A stretch of DNA of 56,691 bases from Acidobacteriaceae bacterium (lineage in GTDB: Bacteria; Acidobacteriota; Terriglobia; Terriglobales; Acidobacteriaceae): NCBI GenBank assembly GCA_027307045.1, contig DAHUXR010000016.1:1-56691 (forward strand), written 5' to 3'. The notes beneath the pieces were generated by a model. The model was given only the letters and a program-made list of their open reading frames with translations. It did no database searches and was not told the origin of the DNA. The translations under genes were made by a program, and so were the position numbers. Of this stretch, positions 19,315 through 34,671 are shown piece by piece. Every line of letters begins with the position of its first letter. The first letter of the stretch is position 1.

Positions 19315-19440
19315 GTGCAGCTCTCACACGCATGTCTCGAATCTTGATTCTACTGCATGGCGGCGGTCTGGCGCCTGGGCAGCGGTTCTATCTTCAGGTT
19401 TTCGAAAACGTATACTGTTGGCGCTAGCAGGAGGTCACCT

Positions 19441-20769
19441 TTGTCCACCGCGAAATCGATCACGCGCTTAGCGATTTTTGTCATGGTGCTCTTTACGATC
19501 ATTCGAGTCCCCGCGCAGGAAGCGCAACCCGCGACTTCCACCCAGGCGCCGTTAACGCTCACGTTGCAAGACGCCTTAAATCGTGCGCGAGCAAATAGTG
19601 TCGCGTTCCAGGCCGCGCTTACTGACCAGGGAATCGCACATGAGGACAAGGTGCAGGCACGCGCCGGACTGCTGCCTAGCGTGAACTATAACAACGAGTT
19701 TATTTATACACAGCCCAACGGCACGCCCTCAGGTGTATTCATTGCCAACAACACGGTGCATGAGTACCTCAGCCAGGGCAATATTCATCAGGTAATCGGG
19801 TACACCAACTATGCCGATTATCGGCGCGCACGGGCGCTGGAGGCGGTGGCGCGCGCAAAGGCGGAAGTCGCCAAGCGCGGGCTGGTGGTGGCCGTGGTGC
19901 AGGGCTATTACGGACTCATAGCTGCGCAGCGCAAGTACGCCAACGTGCAGCAGGCCGCGTCTGAATCGCAGCAGTTTCTCGCACTGAGCCAGAAGCTGGA
20001 AAACGGCGGTGAAGTGGCCCACGCAGATGTGATCAAAGCCCAGATACAGTTCAACGATCGCCAGCGCGATTTGCGTGAAGCCCAGCTTGCGATGGACAAG
20101 AGCCGGCTGGACCTGGCGGTATTGCTCTTTCCCGACTTCAACCTGAATTTCACCGTGGTCGATGATGCTCAGCTTGCTCCGCCGCTCGTAAGCTTTGACG
20201 AATTCGTGAAGGTGGCACAGAACCGCAACCCCGATGTTCGCGCCTCAGGCGCCGGTTTTCAGGCGGCCAAATTTGAGGTCGCGTCCGCTCAGAGCGCCTA
20301 CTTTCCCACGCTCACCTTGGATTATTTTTATGGCATTGATGCACCACACTTCTCCGCGCACGAACCCGATGGAACACGCAACCTCGGCTATGCGGTGGCT
20401 GCTACGTTGAACATTCCTATATGGAATTGGGGCGCGACGCGCAGCAAAGTTGTGCAAGCTAACTTGAGACGCAAGCAGGCCCAGCGCGAACTTACCACGG
20501 CGCAACGCAAACTCCAGGCAGACATGCGGGAACTCTATGCGGAAGCCGAGGCTGCCCATGCGGAACTGGAGTTGCTGAAAAGCTCAGCCGACCTGGCAGC
20601 AGAGAGTCTGCGGCTGACGATTTTGCGTTATCAGGGCGGGGAATCGACGGTGCTGGAAGTGGTGGACGCGCAGAATACGCTCACCCAGGCACGCAACGCG
20701 TTCAGTGATGGCGAGGTCCGCGCGCGCACCGCCGTGGCGAACCTGCAAACGCTAACAGGTACAATGTGA
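19441..20769 (+). CDS. TolC-type outer-membrane efflux protein
   Basis: Start chosen at TTG 19441, which follows a near-perfect AGGAGGT at 19429-19435; a 28-codon longer ATG start lacks such a site. The product (442 residues) has a signal peptide (TRLAIFVMVLFTIIRVPAQ) and two OEP repeats. Each has long helical segments (VAKRGLVVAVVQGYYGLIAA; YAEAEAAHAELELLKSSA) and a YQGGESTVLEVVDAQNTL motif near the end. It is the outer-membrane channel of the tripartite pump whose adaptor and RND genes follow directly. Confidence 0.92.
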   Translation: MSTAKSITRLAIFVMVLFTIIRVPAQEAQPATSTQAPLTLTLQDALNRARANSVAFQAALTDQGIAHEDKVQARAGLLPSVNYNNEFIYTQPNGTPSGVFIANNTVHEYLSQGNIHQVIGYTNYADYRRARALEAVARAKAEVAKRGLVVAVVQGYYGLIAAQRKYANVQQAASESQQFLALSQKLENGGEVAHADVIKAQIQFNDRQRDLREAQLAMDKSRLDLAVLLFPDFNLNFTVVDDAQLAPPLVSFDEFVKVAQNRNPDVRASGAGFQAAKFEVASAQSAYFPTLTLDYFYGIDAPHFSAHEPDGTRNLGYAVAATLNIPIWNWGATRSKVVQANLRRKQAQRELTTAQRKLQADMRELYAEAEAAHAELELLKSSADLAAESLRLTILRYQGGESTVLEVVDAQNTLTQARNAFSDGEVRARTAVANLQTLTGTM

Positions 20770-20781
20770 GTGTCAGGTTCT

Positions 20782-22167
20782 ATGAATAATAAGCGTAACG
20801 CTGGCCGCGTAGTCTCGCTCGTCGCACTGGTGCTGGCTGTTTCTTGCCTCACCACAGGCTGCGGCAAAGGCGAAAAAGAAGAAGCGCCAGAGGTCAGCGT
20901 GCAAGCCGCGACGGCTGCGACCACCGACATCTCTCGCGTGGTGAACACTGAAGGCATTATTTTTCCTGTTGCGCAGTCCGCAATCACGCCCAAGATCAAC
21001 GCGCCGGTAAAGAAGTTCTATGTAGTACGCGGACAGAAAGTAAAGCAGGGACAGCTGCTGGCGACGCTCGAAAATCGCGATCTCTCAGCCGCGGCGCTGG
21101 ATAATAAAGGCGCTTACGAGCAGGCTGAAGCCGCTTACAGCACCAGCATCGGCGCGACCTTGCCGGAAGAGAACGCAAAAGCCGAGCTTGACGTGCAGAC
21201 AGCCCAACAGGAACTCGATGCTCAGCAGAAGCTCTATAACAGCCGGCAGGACCTCTTTAAGCAAGGCGCGCTGCCGCGCAAAGATCTTGACGCTGCCGCC
21301 GTGTCTCTGGCCCAGGCCAAAAGCGCCTACAACATTGCCAAGAAACATCTGGACGGATTAAATGCAGTCGGCAAGCAGGGCGCTATCAAGACAGCCAACG
21401 GGCAGTTGACATCGGCAAAAGGGAAGCTGCTGAACTCTGAAGCGCAGCTCAGCTATTCTGAAGTGCGCAGCCCGATTGCCGGCTTCGTTACGGACCGCCC
21501 GCTCTATCCCGGTGAAATGGCTTCCACATCCGCCCCACTGCTCACGGTGATGGACATTTCGCAGGTCATTGCCAAGGCGCACATTCCGCAGAGCGACGCT
21601 CTGCAACTTCACAAAGGCGATGCTGCCACCATTTCGCTGGCAGGACTGGAAAAGCCAATTAACGGTAAGGTGTCTCTCATCAGTCCGGCGCTCGATCCCA
21701 ACAGCACTACGGTTGAGGTCTGGGTGCAGGCGCCCAATACTGACCAGCTTTTGCGTCCCGGGACCACGGCGCAGATTGCCATCACGGCGCAAACTGTCAA
21801 GGATGCATTGGTGGTGCCCGCCGCGGCGCTGCTCAATGCCAAAGGTGACGCAGCTCAGGTGATGGTGGTGGACTCACAAAGCCAGGCCAGCAGCCGCGAC
21901 GTGAAGACAGGCATCGCAACCGGCCAACAGGTGCAGATTGTTTCCGGTCTCAAACCTGGAGAAACGGTGGTGACTGAAGGGGCATACGGCCTTCCCGACA
22001 AGACGAAAGTCAAAATCGAAAAGCCGGAAACAGAAGCTTCCGGCGCAGATGCCAAAGACAAAGATACAGATAAAGACGATGACGAAAAGTCGAAGCCTGA
22101 TGCCGGCAGCAAGAAAGCCGCGCAACCCAAAGCCAACAGCAAGAATGGCGGCGGCTCAAAGGATTAA
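20782..22167 (+). CDS. RND efflux periplasmic adaptor lipoprotein
   Basis: A membrane-fusion protein of about 460 residues; a GTG at 20770 is an alternative start. The N-terminus has a lipobox (LTTGC). Next come a lipoyl-like barrel (APVKKFYVVRGQKVKQGQLL), a coiled-coil hairpin (about 115-205), the second barrel half (YSEVRSPIAGFVTDRPLYPG) and a beta-barrel domain (GTTAQIAITAQTVKDALVVP). The last 40 or so residues are an unusual low-complexity tail of Lys, Asp and Glu. It couples the RND pump to TolC and starts almost at the stop of the channel gene. Confidence 0.92.
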   Translation: MNNKRNAGRVVSLVALVLAVSCLTTGCGKGEKEEAPEVSVQAATAATTDISRVVNTEGIIFPVAQSAITPKINAPVKKFYVVRGQKVKQGQLLATLENRDLSAAALDNKGAYEQAEAAYSTSIGATLPEENAKAELDVQTAQQELDAQQKLYNSRQDLFKQGALPRKDLDAAAVSLAQAKSAYNIAKKHLDGLNAVGKQGAIKTANGQLTSAKGKLLNSEAQLSYSEVRSPIAGFVTDRPLYPGEMASTSAPLLTVMDISQVIAKAHIPQSDALQLHKGDAATISLAGLEKPINGKVSLISPALDPNSTTVEVWVQAPNTDQLLRPGTTAQIAITAQTVKDALVVPAAALLNAKGDAAQVMVVDSQSQASSRDVKTGIATGQQVQIVSGLKPGETVVTEGAYGLPDKTKVKIEKPETEASGADAKDKDTDKDDDEKSKPDAGSKKAAQPKANSKNGGGSKD

Positions 22168-22173
22168 GTCCAG

Positions 22174-25100
22174 ATGGCGGATGAACCTAAGGTCACGAAC
22201 CATACCGACGTGAAGGGCATCGCGCCGCGCCGCCACTGGCTGGCGCACAACTCCGCTACGATAATCTTCCTCATTATCGTGATCGCGCTTGTTGGCGGCT
22301 ACCAGGCTTTTAATATTCCGATCGCAGTTTTTCCTTCCACGGATTTTCCCCGCATCGTGATTGGCATTGACAACGGCGTGATGCCAATCGATCAAATGAT
22401 GGTTACCATCACGCGACCCGTTGAGCAGGCGGTAAACAGCGTGCAAGGCCTGGAGATGGTGCGTTCCATCACCAGCCGCGGATCAGCGGAGGTCGACTTG
22501 TTCTTTAACTGGCAAGTTGACATGTTTCAGACGCTCCAACTGGTTGATTCGGCCGTGTCAAAAGTTGCAACCGAACTGCCGCCCGGCGCAAAGGTTGAAA
22601 GCCATCGGCTGACCTTTGCGTCATTTCCCATTCTTGGCTACAGCCTCACGTCAGATTCGGTGCCGCAAAATCGGCTATGGGAGATGGCGACCTATGACAT
22701 CGCTCCGCGTCTGAATCGCATGACCGGCGTCGCCACGGTAATTGTGCAAGGCGGACAGGAGCCGGAATTTCAGATCACTCCCAGCCCAGCCCGGCTGCTG
22801 GCGACATCCGTGACGGTAACGGACATCTTGAATGCGGTGAAAGCCACGAATCTTGTGGATTCTCCCGGACTGTTTGAGCGCAATCATCAACTGGTTCTTG
22901 GCCTGGTAAGCGGGCAGGCGCGCAACGCCGACGATCTGGCAAATACTGTAATCAAAAACACGCCTGCGGGGCTTCCGGTGCGCGTCGGCGACGTTGCTAC
23001 AGTCCAGCAGTCGGTCAAGCCGCTATACACCATTGTCCGGGCGGACGGGAAGCCTGCCGTGCTGCTGAACATCAATCGCCAGCCAGACAGCAATACTGTG
23101 GCGGTGGCCAATGAAGTGCATGACGAAGTGGCGCGCATACGCAGCACTCTGCCTCCGGGAATCCGAATTACGCCTTTTTACGATCAGTCCGGCCTTGTGA
23201 AGGATTCCATCGGTAGTGTGCGCGATGCCATTCTGCTAGGGCTGATTCTTTCTGCCATTGTGCTGGTAGTTTTTCTGCGCGATTGGGGAAGCTCGATTGT
23301 GGCCGGGTTGGTAATTCCGGTCACGATTTTTATCACTTTCATGGTGCTCAAGCTGCTGGGCCAGAGCTTTAACCTGATGACGCTGGGCGGCCTTGCCGCC
23401 GCCGTGGGACTGGTAATTGATGACGCGATTGTCGTGGTGGAAAACATTGTGCTGCATCGCGATGCAGGCGAAGGAAAGGTTGAAGCCATGCAGAGCGCGC
23501 TTTCTGAGATTACTGTCCCGTTGATCGGTTCCACGCTTACCCCAATCGTTGTGTTCCTTCCGCTGATTTCCATGACGGGCGTAAATGGAACGTTCTTCCG
23601 CGCGCTGGCCGTGACCATGTGCGCTGCGCTGTTGACGTCGCTCATTCTCGCGCTTACATGGACGCCAACCCTGAGCCTTTTTCTGCTGCGCCGCAAGAAT
23701 GTGGTCGAAGTTCAATCTGCAGAAAATGGCGATGTGGACTCTGAGATTCGCAAGCTCATGGCTGCGGAAGAATCTTCCATGAAAGGCTTCTTCGGCCGGA
23801 TCATCGAGTTTTACGAACGCTGGCTGCGTCGCGCGCTGGAGCACCCAAGGACATTGCTGGCGGGCGCGGCGGTACTCATCCTCATCTCATTTGGAGCCTT
23901 CTATTTCCTGGGCTCGGACCTTCTTCCGGAAATGGACGAAGGCGGTTTCATCCTGGACTACCTGACGCCGCCCGGCAGTTCTTTGCAGGAAACGGATCGC
24001 ATCGTGGGCCATCTGGAAAAGATGCTGCAGGAAACGCCGGAAGTGGAAAGCACCTCTCGCCGCACGGGCTTGCAACTTGGCCTGGCGGCCGTGACTGAGG
24101 CGAACCGTGGCGATATCTCAGTCAAGTTAAAAGCGAACCGCAAGCGAGCGACGGACGACGTAATTGCGGACCTGCGGGCGCAGATAAAGCGGGAGGAGCC
24201 TGCCGTAGATGTGGATTTCCCCTTGATCTTGCAGGACATGATTGGCGATCTGACCGGCGCGCCGGAACCAGTGGTCATTAAACTGTTTTCTGAGGATTCC
24301 AAGCTGCTGGAAGAGCAGGCTCCGCGCGTGGCTGACGCTATCGAAAAAATTAAAGGCGTTGTTGATCTCAAAAATGGCATTGAGAACACCATGAGTGGTC
24401 CGGCAATGGAGTTCCGTGTGAACACCACCGTGGCTGCCAAAGCTGGATTTACCGCGGAAGAGGTTTCCACCGACGCAACGGCGGTCTTGGAAGGCGCCAC
24501 AGCGGCCAATCCGCTGATTGCCAACAACCGCGCTTACAACATACGAGTGCGCTTCCCGGAACAGAACCGGGCGTCCATGGATGCGATGAGCAATACGCTG
24601 CTGGTCAGTTCGTCCGGCAGGACGGCGACGCTGGGCTCACTGGCGCAGATCAATGAACTTCCTGGGCAAACCGAAATCACGCGGGAGAACCTGCAACGGC
24701 TGGTGGAGGTCACCGCGCGCCTGGAAGGCATGAGCCTGGGTACCGGCGTCGCCAAAGTACAGAAAGTTGTTTCTGGATTGCATCTGCCATCTTCCATCCG
24801 GGTGAGTTATGGCGGTCTTTATGCACAGCAGCAGAGTGATTTTCATGACATGGCCATGGTGCTGTTGCTGGCGATCGTCCTGGTCTTCACCGTGCTGCTG
24901 TTTGAATTCCGTAACTTCTCCGCGCCGGTGGCGATTCTGAGTTCTGCTTTGCTTTCGATCTCCGGTGTGTTTCTGGCGCTGTTGGTTACGGGCAAGACCG
25001 TGAATCTGGCGTCACTGATGGGGATGATCATGGTGATCGGCATTGTGGCCAAAAATGGCATCCTGTTACTGGATGCGAATCAGAAATTTGCGCATGCCAA

Positions 25101-25341
25101 CTTTGAGCCGGAAGAAGCGATGGTCCAGGCGGGCCGTCGCCGTTTGCGTCCTATCTTTATGACCGCGCTGGCGACCATGGCTGGCATGTTGCCGCTGGCA
25201 TTTGCGCTGGGCGCAGGATCAGAAATGCTGCAACCGCTGGCGATTGCAGTAATCGGCGGAATTCTGGTCTCGATGGTGCTCTCTCTCATCGTGACGCCTG
25301 CCGTTTATTTCTATCTGGGAAAACATCGCGCCCAAGGCTAA
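22174..25341 (+). CDS. RND-family inner-membrane efflux transporter (HAE1-like)
   Basis: A 1055-residue, 12-helix proton-driven pump. The fourth helix carries GLVIDDAIVVVENI at about 411-424, with the Asp pair used in proton relay. The MTLGGLAAAVG and ALATMAGMLPLAFALGAGSE motifs and a closing TPAVYFYLG are typical. The DDAIVVVEN form is that of the drug-type HAE1 group; heavy-metal HME pumps usually have a different pattern here, so the substrate is uncertain despite the metal-flavoured surroundings. It starts 6 bp after the adaptor gene. Confidence 0.93.
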   Translation: MADEPKVTNHTDVKGIAPRRHWLAHNSATIIFLIIVIALVGGYQAFNIPIAVFPSTDFPRIVIGIDNGVMPIDQMMVTITRPVEQAVNSVQGLEMVRSITSRGSAEVDLFFNWQVDMFQTLQLVDSAVSKVATELPPGAKVESHRLTFASFPILGYSLTSDSVPQNRLWEMATYDIAPRLNRMTGVATVIVQGGQEPEFQITPSPARLLATSVTVTDILNAVKATNLVDSPGLFERNHQLVLGLVSGQARNADDLANTVIKNTPAGLPVRVGDVATVQQSVKPLYTIVRADGKPAVLLNINRQPDSNTVAVANEVHDEVARIRSTLPPGIRITPFYDQSGLVKDSIGSVRDAILLGLILSAIVLVVFLRDWGSSIVAGLVIPVTIFITFMVLKLLGQSFNLMTLGGLAAAVGLVIDDAIVVVENIVLHRDAGEGKVEAMQSALSEITVPLIGSTLTPIVVFLPLISMTGVNGTFFRALAVTMCAALLTSLILALTWTPTLSLFLLRRKNVVEVQSAENGDVDSEIRKLMAAEESSMKGFFGRIIEFYERWLRRALEHPRTLLAGAAVLILISFGAFYFLGSDLLPEMDEGGFILDYLTPPGSSLQETDRIVGHLEKMLQETPEVESTSRRTGLQLGLAAVTEANRGDISVKLKANRKRATDDVIADLRAQIKREEPAVDVDFPLILQDMIGDLTGAPEPVVIKLFSEDSKLLEEQAPRVADAIEKIKGVVDLKNGIENTMSGPAMEFRVNTTVAAKAGFTAEEVSTDATAVLEGATAANPLIANNRAYNIRVRFPEQNRASMDAMSNTLLVSSSGRTATLGSLAQINELPGQTEITRENLQRLVEVTARLEGMSLGTGVAKVQKVVSGLHLPSSIRVSYGGLYAQQQSDFHDMAMVLLLAIVLVFTVLLFEFRNFSAPVAILSSALLSISGVFLALLVTGKTVNLASLMGMIMVIGIVAKNGILLLDANQKFAHANFEPEEAMVQAGRRRLRPIFMTALATMAGMLPLAFALGAGSEMLQPLAIAVIGGILVSMVLSLIVTPAVYFYLGKHRAQG

Positions 25342-26693: not shown

Positions 26694-26893
26694 GGCACGG
26701 CCCAAAGCAGAGAAGTAATAGCTGAGTTAGTTCTCGGCATGTTTGCTGCATTGTCTTTGCCTCCAAGCTTGCTCTAAAAGCGCGGCCATTTGTTCCGGCT
26801 CCTTTGCAAACTATCTGCTCAGGGAGTGAAGCCGGTTTGCTGTTTGCCGAGGAAAATCCTGGAACCTGATTGCGGTTCCTCCGGGGAATCAAG

Positions 26894-29116
26894 ATGTCAA
26901 AACGATTTATCGCGATCATAAGTTTGCTGGCGCTGCTCTCATGCTTGCCGGCCACAGCTTCAGTGTTTGGAACAATCAAGGCCATCGTTCACGATCCGCA
27001 ACATCGGCCTGTGCAGGGCGCCCAGGTTGAAGCGAGGAGCCGCACGTCGGACTTTAAAACGTCCGGCACGACAAATGAAGAAGGCATGGCGCTTCTTTCC
27101 AACGTTCCGGTCGGCGAATATGACGTTACGATAATCTCGCAGGGATTCAGTGGCGCGCAGCAATCCGTAACAGTGAGTTCCGGCAACGTGCAGGAAATGC
27201 ATTTTGCGATGGCACTGGCGCAGCACCAGGAGACGGTGGAAGTTTCGGGAGCGCCGGAAACGGTGGACCCTTCTTCGCCGGTGCCCCAGACGCTGGTTAA
27301 CAGGAGTGATATTGCCCAGACACCGGGCGCTGACCGCACCAACTCCATGGCCATGATCACGGATTATGTTCCCGGAGCTGCCATGGTGCATGACCAATTG
27401 CACGTGCGCGGCGGACACCAGGTAACGTGGGAGATTGACGGAGTGCCTGTTCCGAACACCAATATAGCCACCAATGTGGGGCCGCAGTTTGATCCTAAAG
27501 ATATCGACTACATGGAAGTGCAGCGCGGCAGCTTTTCGGCTGAATCAGGTGATCGCACGTTCGGCGTGTTCAATGTGGTTCCGCGCACCGGCTTTGAGCG
27601 CGCTCACGAGGCCGAGCTTGTTACCAGCTTTGGCAGCTTCAACTCCACTGACGACCAGTTGAGCTTTGGCGACCATAATGATCGCTCAGCATATTACGTG
27701 AGCCTGAGCGGCAATCGCACGGACCATGGGCTGGAGACGCCAACCACGGCCAACCTGCACAATCAAGCTGATGGCGGCGGCGCATTTACTTCCCTGATCC
27801 TGAACGCAACGCCCACAGACCAGCTTCGCTTTGTAGGTTCGGCGCGCACTGATTTTTTTCAGGTACCGAACGATGCCGATCTGCAAGCTGCGGGCGTCCG
27901 TGACCGCGAACGCGAGCAGGACATCTTTGGGAACCTTTCCTGGATCCATACCTTTGGCCCGGGAGTGTTGCTGACGCTGGCTCCTTCATACCACTTTAAC
28001 CGCGCGGCGTTTGAGGGACTTGGAGCCGCCGACCAGCGGCTGGTAACAACAGACAATCGCGCATCATCCTATCTGGGCGGGCAGGGTTCACTCAATGTGG
28101 TTAAGGGCCGGCACAATGCCAGTGTTGGATTTTATGGCTTTGCCCAGCATGACAATACGCTGTTTGGCCTGACCGGCACAAATGATGTGGGCGATCCGGT
28201 GGATGCCCATCCACCTCGGCAAAAAGTCAGCGGCGACCTTGAAGCCGTCTGGATCCAGGACCAGTACAAAGCGTCCTCATGGCTATCATTGACAGCGGGG
28301 GTGCGCTTTACCCGCTTTGCCGGGCTACTAACGGAAACAGTGGGCAGTCCCCGCTTAGGAGTGGCCATCCAGGTCCCGCATCTGCAGTGGATTTTGCGGG
28401 CCTCTTATAGCCGTTACTATCAGGCGCCTCCACTGGATACGATTTCTCCTGACATTCTTGGTGTCTCGCCTGATCAGGGATTTCTGCCATTGCGCGGCGA
28501 GCGTGACGAGCAGCGCGATATTGGGTTGACTATTCCCGTACGCGGATGGGTGCTGGAGTTCGACCAGTTCCGCACCGGAGCGCACAACTTTTTTGACCAT
28601 GACGCTCTGGGAAACTCAAGCTTGTTCATTCCGCTTACGATCGCAGGCGTCCGCATTGTGGGTTATGAGGCCACGGTGCGCTCGCCCAAGTTATTCAAGA
28701 AGATTGATCTGCATCTGGCGTACTCACATCAGTCCGTGGAAGGCTCGGGCGGAGTCACCGGGGGACTTACGGATTTTGCTCCGCCTGCCGCACGTTTCTT
28801 CTTCCTGGACCACGACCAGCGCCAGACGCTGAGCACTGGATTTACGGCTGTACTGCCGCATAAAAGCTGGCTTTCCGGCAACGTGAGCGCCGGCTCAGGT
28901 TTTCTGGATGGCAATGGCCCTGGGCATCTGCCGGCGTACGCGACAGTTGATTTGGCGTTGGGGCATTCGTTCGGCGAGAACTGGTCTGCCAAGCTTACAG
29001 GAACGAACCTGGCGGACAATCGCTATTTCATCGACCACAGCAACAGCTTTGGCGGATCGCACGTAAGCGATCCACGAATGGTGAGCGTGCAATTGCGGTA
29101 TAGGTTCCACTATTAG
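26894..29116 (+). CDS. TonB-dependent receptor with N-terminal carboxypeptidase-regulatory-like domain
   Basis: About 740 residues from the ATG at 26894 (GGGGAA lies upstream; a longer start 8 codons earlier lacks support). Signal peptide, then a beta-sandwich carboxypeptidase-regulatory-like domain (about 25-110; FGTIKAIVHDPQHRPVQGAQ, ending VPVGEYDVTI). The plug domain follows (about 130-230; LHVRGGHQVTWEIDGVPVPN, VQRGSFSAESGDRTFG), then a beta-barrel ending with VQLRYRFHY, whose terminal aromatic is typical of Omp85-inserted barrels. These receptors import scarce ligands across the outer membrane using TonB. The ligand is unknown. Its stop overlaps the convergent peptidase stop. Confidence 0.92.
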   Translation: MSKRFIAIISLLALLSCLPATASVFGTIKAIVHDPQHRPVQGAQVEARSRTSDFKTSGTTNEEGMALLSNVPVGEYDVTIISQGFSGAQQSVTVSSGNVQEMHFAMALAQHQETVEVSGAPETVDPSSPVPQTLVNRSDIAQTPGADRTNSMAMITDYVPGAAMVHDQLHVRGGHQVTWEIDGVPVPNTNIATNVGPQFDPKDIDYMEVQRGSFSAESGDRTFGVFNVVPRTGFERAHEAELVTSFGSFNSTDDQLSFGDHNDRSAYYVSLSGNRTDHGLETPTTANLHNQADGGGAFTSLILNATPTDQLRFVGSARTDFFQVPNDADLQAAGVRDREREQDIFGNLSWIHTFGPGVLLTLAPSYHFNRAAFEGLGAADQRLVTTDNRASSYLGGQGSLNVVKGRHNASVGFYGFAQHDNTLFGLTGTNDVGDPVDAHPPRQKVSGDLEAVWIQDQYKASSWLSLTAGVRFTRFAGLLTETVGSPRLGVAIQVPHLQWILRASYSRYYQAPPLDTISPDILGVSPDQGFLPLRGERDEQRDIGLTIPVRGWVLEFDQFRTGAHNFFDHDALGNSSLFIPLTIAGVRIVGYEATVRSPKLFKKIDLHLAYSHQSVEGSGGVTGGLTDFAPPAARFFFLDHDQRQTLSTGFTAVLPHKSWLSGNVSAGSGFLDGNGPGHLPAYATVDLALGHSFGENWSAKLTGTNLADNRYFIDHSNSFGGSHVSDPRMVSVQLRYRFHY

Positions 29117-30069
29117 CGGCGGGCGGTTGCGGAAGATGGCGGCGCGGTAATGGCCTTGCGGATATTTGATTCCGGCGCTTTGTCGTTAAACGCAACGGAA
29201 CCATCTTTCATCTGGATACCCAGCTTGGTCCAAAGCTGGTCCAGATCCACGGGAGCGGGCTTATCGCGCATGGATTGATAAAGATCGCGGAGAACGGTTG
29301 TGCCGGTGGCTTTGTCGCCCATAGCCAGCGTCTTCTGAATGTCCCAATCTTCATTGATGTTTCCGCCGCCGCGGTTGATTCCGCGCAGAGCGTCTTCAAG
29401 TCCTTTATGACTCTTGGTGCGCTCGTGGATGCGCACGTCAGCGAGCAGGCAGAAGATTGCGCCGCCCCAATAGGTGCGTCCCCAGGTGTGCGTGTTGTCC
29501 AAGCCGTGGTCATCCGGCCCCGGTTCGCCCTTGGGCATGTCGCGGACAAAAGTTCCCCAGACTTCTTGCACCGCCATGCCGCCTTCGCGCGCGCGAGCCA
29601 CCGGCTCAACGTAAGTTGATATGCCTTCTTCAATCCAGTGCTGATCGTCTTCCATGGAGGGGAACGCGAGGTGGATCATCTCATGGACGAGCACCCAGTC
29701 TTCCTTGGTGGCGGCGGTATCAGCATCGCGGCCGACGCTGATCAAAATCAGCCCACCATTCCTGGGATAGGTGACGCCGTGGCGTATGCCGGCGCCGTTT
29801 GTGCTGCGCATTTTTAACGTGAGATGGGGAACGGGGAAGTGCCCGTAGTAGTCGGCGACGGTGGAAGCAGAGTTTTTTACCCAGCCCAGCAACTGGTCGT
29901 GTGAGAGTTTCATTGGGCCATCAGGCAACGTCACGTCGATGGTTGCGCCGGATATTTTCAGTGTCGCGGCGTCGGCGTTGTTCTCTTGTGCAGGAAAGAG
30001 CTTAAGCGGGAACGCCAGCAGAGCGACCGCCGCTATTGGAAGAACCAGGCTAAGACGGCGAAATCCCAT
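29113..30069 (-). CDS. Secreted gluzincin-type metallopeptidase, last gene of the bufferin-like operon
   Basis: The ATG at 30069 gives a 318-residue protein starting with an export signal (GFRRLSLVLPIAAVALLAF). The zinc motif HEMIH is at about 129-133. The third ligand is probably Glu148 in HWIEEG, 14 residues after the second His. The motif pair is gluzincin-like, with weak M1-type features (WIEEGISTYVEP), but the protein is short and lacks the M1 N-terminal domain. It begins 22 bp after the DoxX stop, so it is probably co-transcribed with the precursor-peptide genes. A role in trimming the peptide is possible but only inferred from position. Confidence 0.75.
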   Translation of the reverse strand: MGFRRLSLVLPIAAVALLAFPLKLFPAQENNADAATLKISGATIDVTLPDGPMKLSHDQLLGWVKNSASTVADYYGHFPVPHLTLKMRSTNGAGIRHGVTYPRNGGLILISVGRDADTAATKEDWVLVHEMIHLAFPSMEDDQHWIEEGISTYVEPVARAREGGMAVQEVWGTFVRDMPKGEPGPDDHGLDNTHTWGRTYWGGAIFCLLADVRIHERTKSHKGLEDALRGINRGGGNINEDWDIQKTLAMGDKATGTTVLRDLYQSMRDKPAPVDLDQLWTKLGIQMKDGSVAFNDKAPESNIRKAITAPPSSATARR

Positions 30070-30091
30070 GGGTGACAGATTACCATCTGCT

Positions 30092-30595
30092 TTAGTTGGA
30101 TGCAGCCGCAACAGTAGCCGGAGCGTGCTTCTTACGATAGGCAAGGATCAACGTATCGACGGAAAACTTGCCGGGGCCAAAGATCAAAACCAGCAGCGAT
30201 ACCAGCAGGAATGGAAATGGGTCTGCCGCGAAAAACTTTCCCGACTCGGAAAAGAACGAGGTAAACGCCTCCCGGTCAGCGGTGATATAGGCCACGATCA
30301 TGTTGATCAGCAGCGGGACGGCGATCAGCCGCGATGCCAGCCCAAGAATCAAAAGAATGCCGCCAATGGTTTCGAGCGATGCGTTGAAGTAGGCGTTTAA
30401 GGTTGGGGCGGGAATGCCGAGGTCGGTAAAGAAGCTGACGACCTTGTCAATGTGCCCAAACTTGCCGATGCCGCTCTGGAGGAAGAGCCATCCCCAATAA
30501 ACGCGAATCAGCAGCAGAAAAGGAGATTGCAGTGAGTTCACTGCCTTAAGAAACCAGCCGTAAGCGACTTCACCTTTTTGTATTAAGCCATTCAT
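30092..30595 (-). CDS. DoxX-family membrane protein (bufferin operon)
   Basis: A 167-residue four-helix protein with the DoxX pattern (LLLIRVYWGWLFLQSGIGKF, then LETIGGILLILGLASRL and PLLINMIVAYI). DoxX proteins accompany many MNIO/DUF2063 operons and are thought to act as small quinone-linked or redox membrane proteins; the exact role is open. Its ATG overlaps the stop of the DUF2063 gene (ATGA at 30592-30595), so translation is coupled. Confidence 0.88.
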   Translation of the reverse strand: MNGLIQKGEVAYGWFLKAVNSLQSPFLLLIRVYWGWLFLQSGIGKFGHIDKVVSFFTDLGIPAPTLNAYFNASLETIGGILLILGLASRLIAVPLLINMIVAYITADREAFTSFFSESGKFFAADPFPFLLVSLLVLIFGPGKFSVDTLILAYRKKHAPATVAAASN

Positions 30596-31524
30596 GGTTG
30601 AGATTCTTTTTCCGGCGGACGGCAGAACCAGCCCAGCTGCGACCAGTTGGCAAACCAGTCATGCAGCTGCTCCATCACGCGCTCCAGCTTTTTGCCAGAC
30701 CAGTTGACGGAGGTTTCAATCGCCTGCGAAAGAGGCTGGCCCTGTTGCAATGCGCGCAGCAGCGCAAAGCCCTCCGGCTTTAGACGCTTGAAATAAACGA
30801 TGTTTTCCTGGCGATGAACGGCCAGAAAGACCTTCTTGCCTTTGGGCAGCGGAAGCTGCTTGCGAGGTGCGGAATCGGAATGGTCCATCATGACCACGTT
30901 GCTGGAGATATCGGTTTCCGGATCTTCAGTTTCGCGCACTTTGAGCAGAAGTTCGTCGACGGGATAAGAGAGATCGAGCAACTGAAGATAGGGCTGCAAA
31001 TGAAAAACTGGATCTTCGCCCAGGCCGGCCAGCTCGGCCTGCGAAAGGACAGGGAACTCAGCGGCGTCAAAGGCTTCAATGTCGGCCCACTCCAGCCGCA
31101 CCATGTCGAGCGCCATGCGCTCGTTGCTGGAAATAAACTCCGGGTGCGCGCGCAGCCAGGCTTCCAGACGCGAGCCGAGATCGCGCAGCGTGTATGACAC
31201 CGAGGGCATTTCGGTGAGGTAACCGAGAAGGACTTTGTCAAAAGCTTCCTGCCCGATGACGGCGCGGAGGCCGGGAAAATCGTCAGCAAGGGAAGAGAGC
31301 AGCCGGAACCAGTAAACGCGATTATAGATTTCAAGGCGCTCGACCGAGGTCAGCCGGTCATTCGGCTTCACGATTTCTTCCGCGATCTCTTTGGTCGAAC
31401 GGCCGTCGAGCGTGTGCTCACGCATGCGCTCGTTGTCAGTCAGCGGCTGCCGCACCACGTCAAAGACCGCGCGCTGGAGTTGGTCCAGATTCATACGCAC
31501 CGGATTCACGTTGCCCGCGCTCAT
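30592..31524 (-). CDS. bufC: DUF2063 (HvfC/BufC-type) partner protein of the MNIO enzyme
   Basis: A 310-residue protein. The N-terminal domain (about 10-120) has the DUF2063 signature LDQLQRAVFDVVRQPL, then RLEIYNRVYWFRLLSSLADD and FPGLRAVIGQEAF. The C-terminal domain (about 130-300) includes FHLQPYLQLLDLSYPVDELL. In characterised systems this protein recognises the precursor peptide for the MNIO enzyme. Its ATG overlaps the bufB stop (ATGA at 31521-31524). The name is by family and context; no experimental evidence is available here. Confidence 0.88.
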   Translation of the reverse strand: MSAGNVNPVRMNLDQLQRAVFDVVRQPLTDNERMREHTLDGRSTKEIAEEIVKPNDRLTSVERLEIYNRVYWFRLLSSLADDFPGLRAVIGQEAFDKVLLGYLTEMPSVSYTLRDLGSRLEAWLRAHPEFISSNERMALDMVRLEWADIEAFDAAEFPVLSQAELAGLGEDPVFHLQPYLQLLDLSYPVDELLLKVRETEDPETDISSNVVMMDHSDSAPRKQLPLPKGKKVFLAVHRQENIVYFKRLKPEGFALLRALQQGQPLSQAIETSVNWSGKKLERVMEQLHDWFANWSQLGWFCRPPEKESQP

Positions 31525-32369
31525 GATGCCACCGCCGAACTGGCCGGAATATATTGTTTCGCTTTTAGCGCTTCTTTGTGGACTTCATCGAAAGATGGGA
31601 TGTGATCGTCCCACTCGAGCAGCGTGGCCGTTGGTCCGAACATCTCAATGGCCTTGGCGTAAAGTTGCCACACAGGATCGAGCACGGGATGATCGTGCGT
31701 ATCGAGAATATATTTCTCGTAGTTGGAGTGGCCAGCGATATGGATCTGGGCCACACGCTCGGCGGGCACGCTGCGCAAATACTCAAACGGATCAAAACTA
31801 TGATTGCGCGATGACACGTAGATATTATTCACGTCAAGCAGGATGCCGCAGTCCGCTTGTTCCACCACTTCGTTGAGAAACTCCCATTCCGTCATTTCAG
31901 AAACGTGATATTCGGCGTAACTGCTCACGTTTTCCACGGCGATGGGCACTTCCAGGAAGTCGCGGGCTTCACGGACTTTTTGCGCGGTGCGCTTTGCGGC
32001 TTCAAAGGTGTAGGGCATCGGCAGCAGGTCGTGGGAATAACGCCCGTCCACGCTGCCCCAGCAGAGATGGTCAGTAAGCCAAGGTGTGTTGGTGCGGCGA
32101 ACAAGTTTCTTCAACCGGCGCAGGTGTTCCCGGTTCAGCGGTTCAGCCGAGCCAAAATACATGGAGACGCCGTGTTGCACCACACGATAACGCTCCAGTA
32201 TCTGGTCCAGGACCTGAAGCTGGCGGCCGCCTTCCACCATGTAATTTTCCGAGATGATTTCAAACCAGTCGACGACAGGCTTCTTTTCAAAAATATGATT
32301 GTAATGAGGAACGCGCAGCCCGATTCCTACGCCGAAGTCTTTGTATCCGTTGAAACGATTTGCGGGCAT
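31521..32369 (-). CDS. bufB: MNIO (DUF692) multinuclear iron oxidative enzyme
   Basis: A 282-residue TIM-barrel enzyme with the DUF692 metal-ligand set in order: E41-N42 (ISENYM), H66 (QHGVSM), D100-H101 (LTDHLCW), E146-N147 (VENVSS), D179 and N181 (LLDVNNIY), H210 and H214 (QIHIAGHSN), D223-H227 (DTHDHP), E252 (LEWDDH). Members modify cysteines in ribosomally made peptides, for example to oxazolone or thiooxazole groups. Here the substrate should be the five-cysteine peptide encoded directly upstream. All ligand positions I can recognise are intact. Confidence 0.92.
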   Translation of the reverse strand: MPANRFNGYKDFGVGIGLRVPHYNHIFEKKPVVDWFEIISENYMVEGGRQLQVLDQILERYRVVQHGVSMYFGSAEPLNREHLRRLKKLVRRTNTPWLTDHLCWGSVDGRYSHDLLPMPYTFEAAKRTAQKVREARDFLEVPIAVENVSSYAEYHVSEMTEWEFLNEVVEQADCGILLDVNNIYVSSRNHSFDPFEYLRSVPAERVAQIHIAGHSNYEKYILDTHDHPVLDPVWQLYAKAIEMFGPTATLLEWDDHIPSFDEVHKEALKAKQYIPASSAVAS

Positions 32370-32412
32370 AAAGCTGATAAAGAGAGAAGAGATTCCTGAA
32401 ATATTTTGAAAT

Positions 32413-32459
32413 AGAGGACCAGCGGCGATCCACCGGTCCTCTTCAACTGAGAGGACCGG
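32413..32459 (-). promoter_or_regulatory. Mutually exclusive hairpins between precursor and MNIO genes
   Basis: A perfect 10-bp stem (CCGGTCCTCT at 32433-32442 with AGAGGACCGG at 32450-32459, 7-nt loop) lies just after the peptide stop codon. A second AGAGGACC at 32413-32420 can pair instead with GGTCCTCT at 32435-32442. No T-run follows either stem. On the minus-strand transcript this could stabilise the short peptide mRNA, set the ratio of peptide to enzyme, or act as a switch. Confidence 0.6.
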
Positions 32460-32462
32460 AAA

Positions 32463-32744
32463 CTATTTGCTGTCGCCCTCTTTTGGCATGGGCTTGCCGT
32501 CTGTCCGGCATTCGCCTTTACCTTTGCAATCATTCTTGCCTTTGGTGGATCCGCAGCCGCCTTTGCCTTTGCAGGAATTCTGTCCCTTGCAGGCATGCTT
32601 ATCTTTCTTTGACTTGGTGGCCTTTTTGCCGCTGGTGGCCGCTTTGTCCTTATCGCCGCCAGTGTCCTGGGCAAGTACGGTTTGTCCGGCCATAAATCCT
32701 GTCAGAGCGGCACCCATAAGCAGTAAACGAACTGATTTCGTCAT
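32463..32744 (-). CDS. bufA: Bufferin-like cysteine-rich precursor peptide
   Basis: A 93-residue peptide with a Sec signal (MTKSVRLLLMGAALTGFMAG, cleavage probably after VLA at about 25), a Lys-rich spacer and a glycine-rich core. Five cysteines (C52, C58, C64, C73, C79) are spaced x5, x5, x8, x5 in repeats of the form ACKGQNSC, CKGKGGC, NDCKGKGEC. GGAAGGGAG lies 8 bp before the ATG. Bufferins are exported RiPPs whose cysteines are converted by an MNIO and which bind copper in the periplasm. Assignment rests on composition plus the adjacent DUF692/DUF2063/DoxX genes. The odd cysteine number is noteworthy. Confidence 0.83.
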   Translation of the reverse strand: MTKSVRLLLMGAALTGFMAGQTVLAQDTGGDKDKAATSGKKATKSKKDKHACKGQNSCKGKGGCGSTKGKNDCKGKGECRTDGKPMPKEGDSK

Positions 32745-32890
32745 TGGTAAATCTCCCTTCCGATTTTTTTAAATGTCTGCCGAAAGCATTATCCAGGCCG
32801 CTTATACAGGGCCCTTAACCACTTTCGAACAGCGTCCTTTGAAGTACGTACAGCAGTGTAAAACGGATTGTTTCTTGTGGAGCTTCAATG

Positions 32891-32908
32891 CGGCGGCACG
32901 CGCCGCCG
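32891..32908. other. GC-rich hairpin between the polyprenyl synthase gene and the bufferin operon
   Basis: CGGCGGC-ACGC-GCCGCCG forms a 7-bp stem with a 4-nt loop. On the minus strand it lies downstream of the synthase stop and upstream of the precursor peptide. There is no T-tract, so it may be part of a long leader rather than a terminator. Confidence 0.45.
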
Positions 32909-32919
32909 GTAGTGGGTGA

Positions 32920-32947
32920 ATATTACACACATGTTCCATAGGGACAA
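32920..32947 (-). promoter_or_regulatory. Possible promoter of the bufferin operon
   Basis: On the minus strand TTGTCC (32942-32947) and TAATAT (32920-32925) are 16 bp apart. They would give a leader of about 170 nt that includes the hairpin at 32891-32908. Identified by eye; other promoters are possible. Confidence 0.3.
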
Positions 32948-33028
32948 ATATGCGAGGGAATACTAACATGCGGGTACACGGGGAATGAAGTACTTTTCAC
33001 TTCGTCCCAGATGGCACCTTAGGTTCGG

Positions 33029-33910
33029 CTAATGTTTGCGCTGCACCAGAAAGTGGGCCAGGTCCTTTAGCGTTTGGGCGCGCTGGGCAAATGAATCGAG
33101 CGCGCTACAGCCAGAGGAGACAAGCGAATCGGCCCGGCGCAAGGATTCATCGATTCCAAACAGAGAGGGATACGTCGCTTTTTCTGAAGCTGTGTCTTTG
33201 CCGGCGGTCTTACCCAGTTGTTCTGAAGACTGAGTAACATCAAGGACGTCATCCACGATTTGGAATGCCAATCCAATCGAGCGGCCAAAATCGCGCAGGC
33301 GCTGGATTTCAGCCAGCGATCCGTTCGCGTAGATCCCTCCACTCACGAGGCTGGACGTGATGAGCGCTCCGGTTTTGGAGCGATGAATATATTCCAAAGT
33401 CGCGGCGTCCGCAGGCTGGCGTTCCGCTTCAAGGTCTTTGACCTGCCCGCCAATCATTCCATCAATCGTGCCAGTGCCACGGGCAATTTCTTCGATGATT
33501 TTCACTCGCGCTTCCGCTGGACACTTCAGCCGCGCCAAAACTTCATAGGCCTGCGTCTGGAGCGCGTCGCCGGCAAGGATGGCGAGCGCCTCACCAAAGA
33601 CCACGTGGCAGGTTGGCTTGCCGCGGCGCAGATCGTCGTTATCGAGCGCGGGCAGATCGTCATGAATGAGTGAATACGTGTGCAGCATTTCCAGAGCGCT
33701 GCCAAGCTCTTCAACGCCGTCCGGCAGGCGTCCAGCGATCATGCGCGCGGCTTCAAGGCACAAGATGGGACGCAAGCGCTTTCCTCCGGCAAAAACGCTG
33801 TGCCGCATCGCCTGATGGATGGAGTCCGGCCGCTGGGTGGCGGCGGGCAAAAGCTTTTCCAGCGAAGCGTCAATGGTGCGCTGGCCTTGCGCAAGGATCT
33901 CATTCAGCAT
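33029..33910 (-). CDS. ispA: Short-chain polyprenyl diphosphate synthase (FPP synthase-like)
   Basis: The ATG at 33910 is preferred to one 19 codons upstream, because the upstream part is not typical of the family. The product (293 residues) has GGKRLRP for pyrophosphate binding, the first Asp-rich motif DDLPALDNDD at about 84-93, and the second DDVLDV at about 215. It condenses isopentenyl diphosphate with DMAPP or GPP to make C15 or C20 prenyl diphosphates. The family usually lies next to xseB; here the two are separated by a receiver-like gene and a gene-free gap. Confidence 0.93.
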   Translation of the reverse strand: MLNEILAQGQRTIDASLEKLLPAATQRPDSIHQAMRHSVFAGGKRLRPILCLEAARMIAGRLPDGVEELGSALEMLHTYSLIHDDLPALDNDDLRRGKPTCHVVFGEALAILAGDALQTQAYEVLARLKCPAEARVKIIEEIARGTGTIDGMIGGQVKDLEAERQPADAATLEYIHRSKTGALITSSLVSGGIYANGSLAEIQRLRDFGRSIGLAFQIVDDVLDVTQSSEQLGKTAGKDTASEKATYPSLFGIDESLRRADSLVSSGCSALDSFAQRAQTLKDLAHFLVQRKH

Positions 33911-34149
33911 GAATACTGAGTATAAAACAAGAGGGACCGCCATCAGCACGCGCGAGCGGAAAAGCAAAATTCACCGCGGAGGCGCGGAGTTCCGGAGGAA
34001 GTGATCGAACAATTCGCTCTTCGCCTTGATCATCCTGGTCTTCCGATCTCATGCGATCGGGCGATCCTTGCCCAATCCGTGTCATCCGTGTTGAGGTTTT
34101 CTTTTCCGATGGGGCGCGTTGGGGGCGATCACGGTAATTCCGACGATTC
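33911..34149. repeat. Gene-free stretch with dispersed repeats
   Basis: Contains CACCGCGGAGGCGCGGAG (about 33973-33990) and AATCCGTGTCATCCGTGTTG (about 34076-34095), both members of the dispersed intergenic families seen elsewhere in the window, plus GATC/GCGATC-rich sequence. No ORF is convincing. Confidence 0.55.
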
Positions 34150-34177
34150 AAAAAAAGGAGCATCTTTTCGATGCTCC
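34150..34177 (-). terminator. Rho-independent terminator of the receiver-like gene
   Basis: On the minus strand GGAGCATC-GAAAA-GATGCTCC is followed by seven T residues. It lies about 30 bp after the receiver-like stop codon. Confidence 0.85.
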
Positions 34178-34207
34178 CTTTAGACGGAGGAGGGTACAAC
34201 AGATATT

Positions 34208-34579
34208 TCAGGCGGCGTGCGCGTGAGAAAGCGGTTTGGTGTGGCTGGCCGCCAGGACGATAGCGCGCACATCAGAGGCATAGCAACAATCGCCGGCGCC
34301 GGCTGCCAGCGCAATGGCCCACATTGTTTCATCGGCCAGGCGATGCGTGCAGACAATGGTGGTGGACGCAAAGTCGCGCTTGAGTTGCTGCACTTCACTC
34401 AGCGCGGCCAGCTCAAGGTCAATGATAGCCACATCGGCGCGGAACCTGGGGATGGCTAAACGCAATGCATCCACATCTCCGGCCAGATGCACCACGCGGA
34501 AATGGTTATAGAGCGATTTCTCCAACATTTCCGCAGTCTTGCTGTTGCTTTGGGCGACAACTACACTCAGCGGTTTCAT
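34208..34579 (-). CDS. Degenerate receiver-domain protein (pseudo-receiver)
   Basis: The ATG at 34579 has GAGG 9 bp upstream. The 123-residue product has the alternating pattern of a CheY-like fold. Asp54 sits at the phospho-acceptor position (ADVAIIDLE), and a Thr lies at the end of strand four (IVCTHR). The acidic pair expected near the N-terminus is replaced (VVVAQSNSK), and the conserved Lys after strand five is missing (GAGDCCYASDV). Normal phosphorylation is therefore unlikely, and a phosphorylation-independent regulator is the better guess. It lies between xseB and ispA, with its own terminator. Confidence 0.65.
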   Translation of the reverse strand: MKPLSVVVAQSNSKTAEMLEKSLYNHFRVVHLAGDVDALRLAIPRFRADVAIIDLELAALSEVQQLKRDFASTTIVCTHRLADETMWAIALAAGAGDCCYASDVRAIVLAASHTKPLSHAHAA

Positions 34580-34671
34580 GAAAGACATCCTCATTTCGCC
34601 GTGCGAAAACACGTCGGTTCTTTTCGCTTGAGACTTTCACGGCTGCTGGATTTCCGCAGGCTTTGGGGGAA

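Follow-up and report, generated by a model that had tools for sequence, protein, structure and literature searches.

Bufferins are a young and very large group of copper-binding peptides. According to the available sections of the survey PMC12452194, a bufferin core consists of genes for a precursor, an MNIO maturase, a DUF2063 protein and a DoxX protein, with no peptidase in that core, and the word “peptidase” does not occur in its main text. The survey assigns six cysteines to 90% of Buf2 peptides (BufA2, NCBIfam NF050166; its “Buf_6/12Cys” group) and 12 to the rest. The captophorins carry 5-thiooxazoles, those tested so far bind copper, and the MNIOs of their Cys-Lys group are marked by an Asp at the position of FonB-Phe250; no peptidase appears among their genes in the parts of that 2026 article at hand (PMC13097082). 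Likewise, no proteases are described near the related mmr cluster in the accessible part of PMC12538549. Among the open-licence literature matches listed, none dealt with a peptidase for bufferins or with bufferins of acidobacteria. Here, we describe five minus-strand genes at positions 29113-32744 of contig DAHUXR010000016.1 from an Acidobacteriaceae bacterium (assembly GCA_027307045.1), a stretch of 56,691 nt that is referred to in full as the window. We consider it likely that these genes form a Buf2-type bufferin operon (captophorin, Cys-Lys group), compact and cysteine-reduced as is typical for some Acidobacteriota, with an exported M1/M61-like metallopeptidase as an addition, and that the operon works along the lines proposed below. 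By analogy with characterized relatives, the gene set of this soil acidobacterium probably makes an exported copper-binding peptide. The peptidase, a new part that the initial annotation listed without comment, is the most informative one and, through its co-occurrence with the maturase, a direct candidate for bufferin processing or turnover.

The maturase gene bufB (31521-32369; 282 aa) encodes an MNIO that exceeds the cut-offs of PF05114 (formerly DUF692; 362.6 bits, E 1.4e-108) and of the NCBIfam bufferin-maturase model MNIO_BufB (NF050167; 350.6 bits, cut-off 310), and stays under that of the HvfB model (260.9 bits, cut-off 360). It aligns with solved DUF692, TglH and MbnB chains across the conserved His/Asp/Glu/Asn positions, which we take to be the metal ligands and which the initial annotation had recognized as a preserved ligand set. 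An ATGA overlap connects bufB to bufC (30592-31524; 310 aa), the gene of a DUF2063 partner (PME-type 1) that lies over the cut-off of PF09836 (52.8 bits, cut-off 27.2, E 4.9e-14) and under those of NGO1945_C (21.6 bits, cut-off 27) and HvfC (47.3 bits, cut-off 142); a PDB sequence search with BufC returned nothing notable. A second ATGA overlap leads to doxX (30092-30595; 167 aa), which encodes an HvfX-like membrane protein over the cut-off of PF07681 (76.7 bits, cut-off 23.6, E 2.2e-21) and slightly under that of HvfX (71.2 bits, cut-off 80). The peptidase gene follows after 22 bp if read from the ATG at 30069 (29113-30069; 317 residues plus stop), behind which a hydrophobic, signal-like stretch is encoded; its longest open reading frame spans 29113-30144 (343 aa). 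At the other end of the operon, 93 bp separate bufB from the bufA-like precursor gene (32463-32744; 93 aa). These coordinates agree with the single five-gene unit, the overlaps and the 22-bp gap of the initial annotation, and its designation as an operon for a bufferin-type ribosomally synthesized and post-translationally modified peptide is upheld by the BufB score, by the DUF2063 and DoxX scores and by the gene order A-B-C-D, which is that of the published core and of Buf2-type operons. Of the families for which it had suggested profile searches, DUF692 and DUF2063 were recovered over their cut-offs. The family matches, together with the recurrence of the A-B-C order in relatives, indicate that this gene set is more than a chance arrangement. 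Judged from its sequence, the operon is a real one of a known kind, namely a compact Buf2 operon with a lost cysteine and a strongly associated putative peptidase.

The precursor consists of a Sec-type N-terminus (judged by eye), a Lys-rich linker, a first module HACKGQNSCKGKGGC and a truncated second module GKNDCKGKGEC. Its five cysteines (Cys 52, 58, 64, 73, and 79), already counted in the initial annotation alongside a Sec signal, are laid out as C-x5-C-x5-C-x8-C-x5-C and include three Cys-Lys-Gly motifs: Lys follows Cys 52, 58, and 73, Gly follows Cys 64 and Arg follows Cys 79. Several Cys-Lys motifs are likewise characteristic of the Cys-Lys captophorins, with which the operon also shares an MNIO, a PME1/DUF2063 partner and the specificity marker, as far as the sections of PMC13097082 at hand describe them. 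In the window MNIO, D254 aligns with the proposed catalytic base and D255 with the Asp at the FonB-Phe250 position. In a set of 121 loci that includes a few duplicates, every MNIO has Asp as the base; the residue after it is Asp in 96 and Phe in none. By their position before Lys, Cys 52, 58, and 73 are candidates for modification, while Cys 64 and 79 may stay thiols or pair.

Among NCBIfam models, only BufA2 gave a meaningful match to the precursor (E 8.6e-5, 22.7 bits, cut-off 60); there was no match to HvfA and no EGKCG motif, and Pfam yielded nothing at E<=10, hence no DUF2282 domain as in Buf1. Of the DUF2282-like relation that the initial annotation had in mind, the DUF2282 part failed and a sub-cut-off relation to BufA2 remained. 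Buf1 bufferins share the MNIO, DUF2063, DoxX and an exported precursor with the window operon but differ in the layout and number of cysteines, and the oxazolin-type HvfA/EGKCG systems share the HvfX-like DoxX and HvfC-like partner, both under their cut-offs; membership of either group was rejected for lack of a precursor match. On the profile E-value, the three Cys-Lys-Gly motifs and the Asp marker of the MNIO, the precursor is best placed within the Buf2/“Cys-Lys” group. Its low score has a parallel in its relatives: of 61 genomes near the window, nine contained a match to the BufA2 model at E<=0.01 and none (0/61) a match over its cut-off, and six-Cys intermediates from the window's family reach 34-39 bits. 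Five proteobacterial plasmid precursors adjoining related MNIOs scored 88.5-105.6 bits, all five over the cut-off. Therefore, the model finds its own group and misses the window's branch, and the curated BufA2 model under-calls this acidobacterial branch.

The cysteine number was traced through BufB loci collected from the genome draws described below and from the best 80 of at least 543 confirmed contigs. The closest of these contigs are from soil Terriglobia/Acidobacteriaceae (L088 and L089; MNIO identity 95 and 85%), and several BufB contigs carry a Verrucomicrobia label. Removal of duplicates left 93 loci, of which 79 were classified by layout; six without a precursor in reach and eight with odd layouts were left aside, among the latter L102, which proved to be six-Cys, L128, a four-Cys form, and the single-module, three-Cys precursors L118 and L165, which may be the most reduced version of the peptide. 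The layout C-x5-C-x5-C-x6-C-x5-C-x5-C, that is, two C-x5-C-x5-C modules, occurs in 54 of the 79 loci (in one with a seventh cysteine), four-Cys precursors in 19 and five-Cys precursors in six. Of 88 precursors, 53 contain two full modules, 14 contain one, 20 have no full module and a single one has four. Aligned to its six-Cys relatives, the window precursor lacks four residues, DNGC, and with them the fourth cysteine, and a four-Cys example lacks five residues at the deletion site and has Gly in place of the third cysteine. On the MNIO tree, which derives from a quick search and has weakly supported deep forks, at least five changes between four and six cysteines and at least three between five and six are required. 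According to these alignments, the odd number of cysteines in the window arose when a local deletion shortened an ancestral layout with six, and the four-Cys forms have lost two. In this natural 6-5-4 series, the dispensable cysteines can be recognized, which helps to locate the modified ones.

The same relatives bear on the proposal of the initial annotation that the peptide may represent a distinct substrate class. As far as PMC12452194 could be drawn on, the window shares with Buf2 the signal peptide, the C-x5-C-x5-C start, CKG motifs, the bufA-bufB-bufC-doxX order and a BufB over its cut-off; it differs in its five instead of six or 12 cysteines, its sub-cut-off precursor, its extra peptidase and the last cysteine gap, which is x5 in the compact type and about x12 in proteobacterial Buf2. 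The latter gap and the absence of any relative over the BufA2 cut-off in the 61 genomes would suit a separate class, as would a MAFFT alignment to proteobacterial Buf2 alone, in which Cys 73 stands opposite their fourth cysteine rather than the fifth. The alignment to the closer six-Cys relatives, which fit apart from the single four-residue gap, appears preferable, however, and these same-family intermediates score 34-39 bits for BufA2; the MNIO, moreover, scores high enough to count as a BufB. A distinct class is consequently improbable and was rejected on account of the six-Cys intermediates. Even less probable is a plain cysteine-rich, metal-binding peptide beside an MNIO that modifies something else. 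In its favor, Lys adjoins three of the five cysteines, and such motifs are left unprocessed by the enzyme FonBC according to the portion of PMC13097082 available; yet FonBC belongs to another specificity group, the window MNIO carries the Cys-Lys marker, and the linkage of bufA and bufB is immediate and conserved.

The peptidase matched no Pfam or NCBIfam family at E<=10, and a PDB sequence search retrieved nothing (phmmer best 0.13). The HExxH motif and E148, the Glu of a W-x-x-E-G motif, are nevertheless invariant in all 29 aligned sequences. The AlphaFold2 model (predicted local distance difference test, 89.8; predicted template modelling score, 0.85) was matched by Foldseek to a total of 104 PDB chains with E<=0.001, M61 and M1 chains among them, with the M61 structure 7xyo as the best match (E 1.1e-8, probability 1.00, template modelling (TM) score 0.55 by model length). 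With HExxH and a downstream Glu in a gluzincin fold, as modelled and aligned, the protein is predicted to be an exported M1/M61-like metallopeptidase; it shares the predicted catalytic-domain fold of M1/M61 aminopeptidases but differs from them in lacking a sequence match and in being a single small domain with a signal peptide. Proteins of similar length with HExxH, termed Adjamnio-III, also occur beside MNIOs (PMC12452194; compared by the description in its available part only), but they precede an MNIO-nitroreductase gene and contain three to four cysteines, whereas the window peptidase follows doxX and has one. In a congener (L065, G004) and a few other genomes, e.g., G169 and G455, the peptidase gene contains an in-frame TGA, due to either assembly error or decay. 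The peptidase relatives of L099 and L103 begin with RRS-x-L signal-like N-termini resembling twin-arginine translocation (Tat) signals.

The distribution of the peptidase was compared with that of the MNIO in two genome draws. Within the family (200 genomes; peptidase at E<=1e-10, BufB at E<=1e-80), the peptidase is present in 48 genomes and BufB in 70, and 46 of the 48 peptidase genomes also encode BufB (Fisher p 6e-25); all 20 peptidase genera fall among the 27 BufB genera out of 79. Across the phylum (396 genomes; MNIO at E<=1e-20), each of the 24 peptidase genomes, from eight families and 13 genera, has an MNIO, compared to a base frequency of 99/396. The gene for a TonB-dependent receptor next to the operon served as a control and showed no such link: homologues occur in 157 of the 200 family genomes, in 52 of the 70 that have BufB (p 0.29) and, among the 48 peptidase genomes, in 39 (p 0.69); the receptor was dismissed as a part of the system for want of enrichment with BufB. 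Two other controls proved too rare (GDSL lipase, 2/200) or too common (homocysteine methyltransferase/MTHFR fusion, 188/200). Outside the window's family, the peptidase occurs in eight of 12 genomes whose precursors are compact and have several modules and in none of seven with long-tailed Buf2 (Fisher p 0.013); for this test, precursor types were assigned by eye, 19 of the 26 loci entered the count and the 15 peptidase-free genomes were a chosen subset of all such genomes. The peptidase is thus found almost only in genomes that carry the same peptide-modifying enzyme.

Where both genes are present in the family, they lie within 2.5 kb of each other in 13 of 46 genomes: the peptidase is downstream on the same strand in ten (five of these being the window and its congeners), upstream on the same strand in two and on the opposite strand in one. 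These at least three separate placements beside bufB, the co-occurrence of 24/24 and 46/48 over eight families and the missing link of the neighboring receptor all speak against the peptidase as a mere lineage marker of larger-genome lineages, which would serve general periplasmic peptide turnover and was captured into some operons by chance. That alternative, which we regard as rather unlikely, draws on the many unlinked copies (33 of 46 not within 2.5 kb) and on counts that were made without a species tree, in which genera and families are non-independent draws. The peptidase instead probably trims or recycles the bufferin. A more far-reaching proposal is put forward tentatively, at somewhat less than even odds: the peptidase would be dedicated to bufferins, as the first protease linked to a metallophore that an MNIO makes for export, and would trim or recycle the metal-loaded peptide in the periplasm. 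It would pair with compact CKGKGGC precursors and not with long-tailed Buf2, the cysteine number (4, 5, 6, or 12) would be tuned by module loss and gain, and Tat-like signals in distant acidobacterial relatives would allow modification before export.

Several observations weigh against the reading of the operon as a peptidase-extended Buf2 system. The precursor remains far below the BufA2 cut-off, with five cysteines where BufA2 has six or 12, and the TM-scores of the peptidase model are moderate even for the best match. The Fisher value of the family draw takes no account of shared descent. Both genes are farther apart or on different contigs in the 33 unlinked genomes, 24 of 70 BufB genomes have no peptidase and two of 48 peptidase genomes no BufB; outside the family, two further peptidase genomes have other precursors (one KCG-type) and in one none was found. 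The peptidase is downstream in five of six five-Cys loci but in only 11 of 54 six-Cys and none of 19 four-Cys loci (12 contigs being too short to tell) and is therefore no fixed part of the operon. Finally, the mmr cluster is not copper-induced according to the accessible part of PMC12538549.

The 93-bp gap between bufA and bufB contains a strong stem-loop (32413-32459, minus strand; z -3.07, 0/200 shuffles as stable), a feature absent from the initial annotation. Its second arm (32433-32442) can pair with either the first (32450-32459) or the third (32413-32422), resulting in two mutually exclusive helices, of which that of arms 2 and 3 is kept in relatives. Compared with dinucleotide shuffles, the gaps of 80 loci (one 25-nt gap left out) have a mean z of -3.46, with 61 under -2 and none over 0, whereas same-length segments inside bufB have a mean of 0.02 and none under -2. 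The sequence varies between clades; in the window's clade, all ten pairs of the 10-bp helix are retained in six of six loci tested, with two positions changed on both sides. The stem-loop after bufA is thus conserved and is likely a stabilizer or partial terminator giving more precursor than enzyme. A search of Rfam with 26800-34600 gave no match, and inspection by eye of the region upstream of bufA in seven loci revealed no common motif.

In the proposed working of the operon, bufA would be translated in excess because the downstream stem-loop shields most transcripts or terminates them. BufB, together with BufC, would then oxidize some of the Lys-preceding cysteines (52, 58, and 73) to 5-thiooxazoles in the cytoplasm, and the modified peptide would exit via Sec to bind and buffer Cu(I) in the periplasm, with DoxX as an inner-membrane protein acting for the pathway. 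Once exported, the bufferin would be trimmed by the peptidase, or degraded by it for the recycling of metal and amino acids. Both the 5-thiooxazole chemistry and copper buffering are transferred from published relatives, and a bufferin for another metal or for redox stress instead of copper is conceivable, albeit unlikely. Bufferin-like clusters have been described together with mercury or gold functions, and DoxX hints at stresses of another kind (PMC12452194, available part); the window operon has no copper gene next to it, and the resistance-nodulation-division (RND) pump at 19357-25341 is not clearly of the heavy-metal type, being under both cut-offs. Copper is favored, in turn, by the captophorins tested so far, which bind it (PMC13097082, sections at hand), and by the proteobacterial plasmid copies, which adjoin copper genes (multicopper oxidase). 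The RND pump was discarded as a copper pump, being ambiguous and under all permease cut-offs shown.

Export through Sec must wait until modification is complete, as stated in the available part of PMC12452194, in which Tat has no occurrence. Of 115 precursors examined, ten from distant acidobacterial relatives, representing nine distinct places (L037 and L082 are the same), begin with RRxF signals; the bufA-like genes in question are L037, L039, L042, L075, L169, L170, L171, L172, and L185. We take these signals to be Tat-like by their motif only. The precursor of L037 (G321), which adjoins an MNIO gene, comprises 158 aa with 17 cysteines, mostly in ASCKGEK repeats, and its genome has no peptidase. 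Outside the window's family, L076/L132 (G058) combine a nearly identical five-Cys precursor core with an MNIO that is only 79% identical and placed elsewhere in the tree, which means either that the precursor gene was exchanged or that a long branch is misplaced. A plasmid of Asticcacaulis excentricus (L087) carries Buf1- and Buf2-type operons back to back, with a TonB-dependent receptor gene after the Buf1 operon. Five g250 genomes (G450, G506, G532, G548, and G574) also have homologues of the window's receptor downstream of bufB, at a distance of about 3.4 kb. In the window, the receptor gene (26894-29116) converges on the peptidase gene, and the two open reading frames overlap by four bases.

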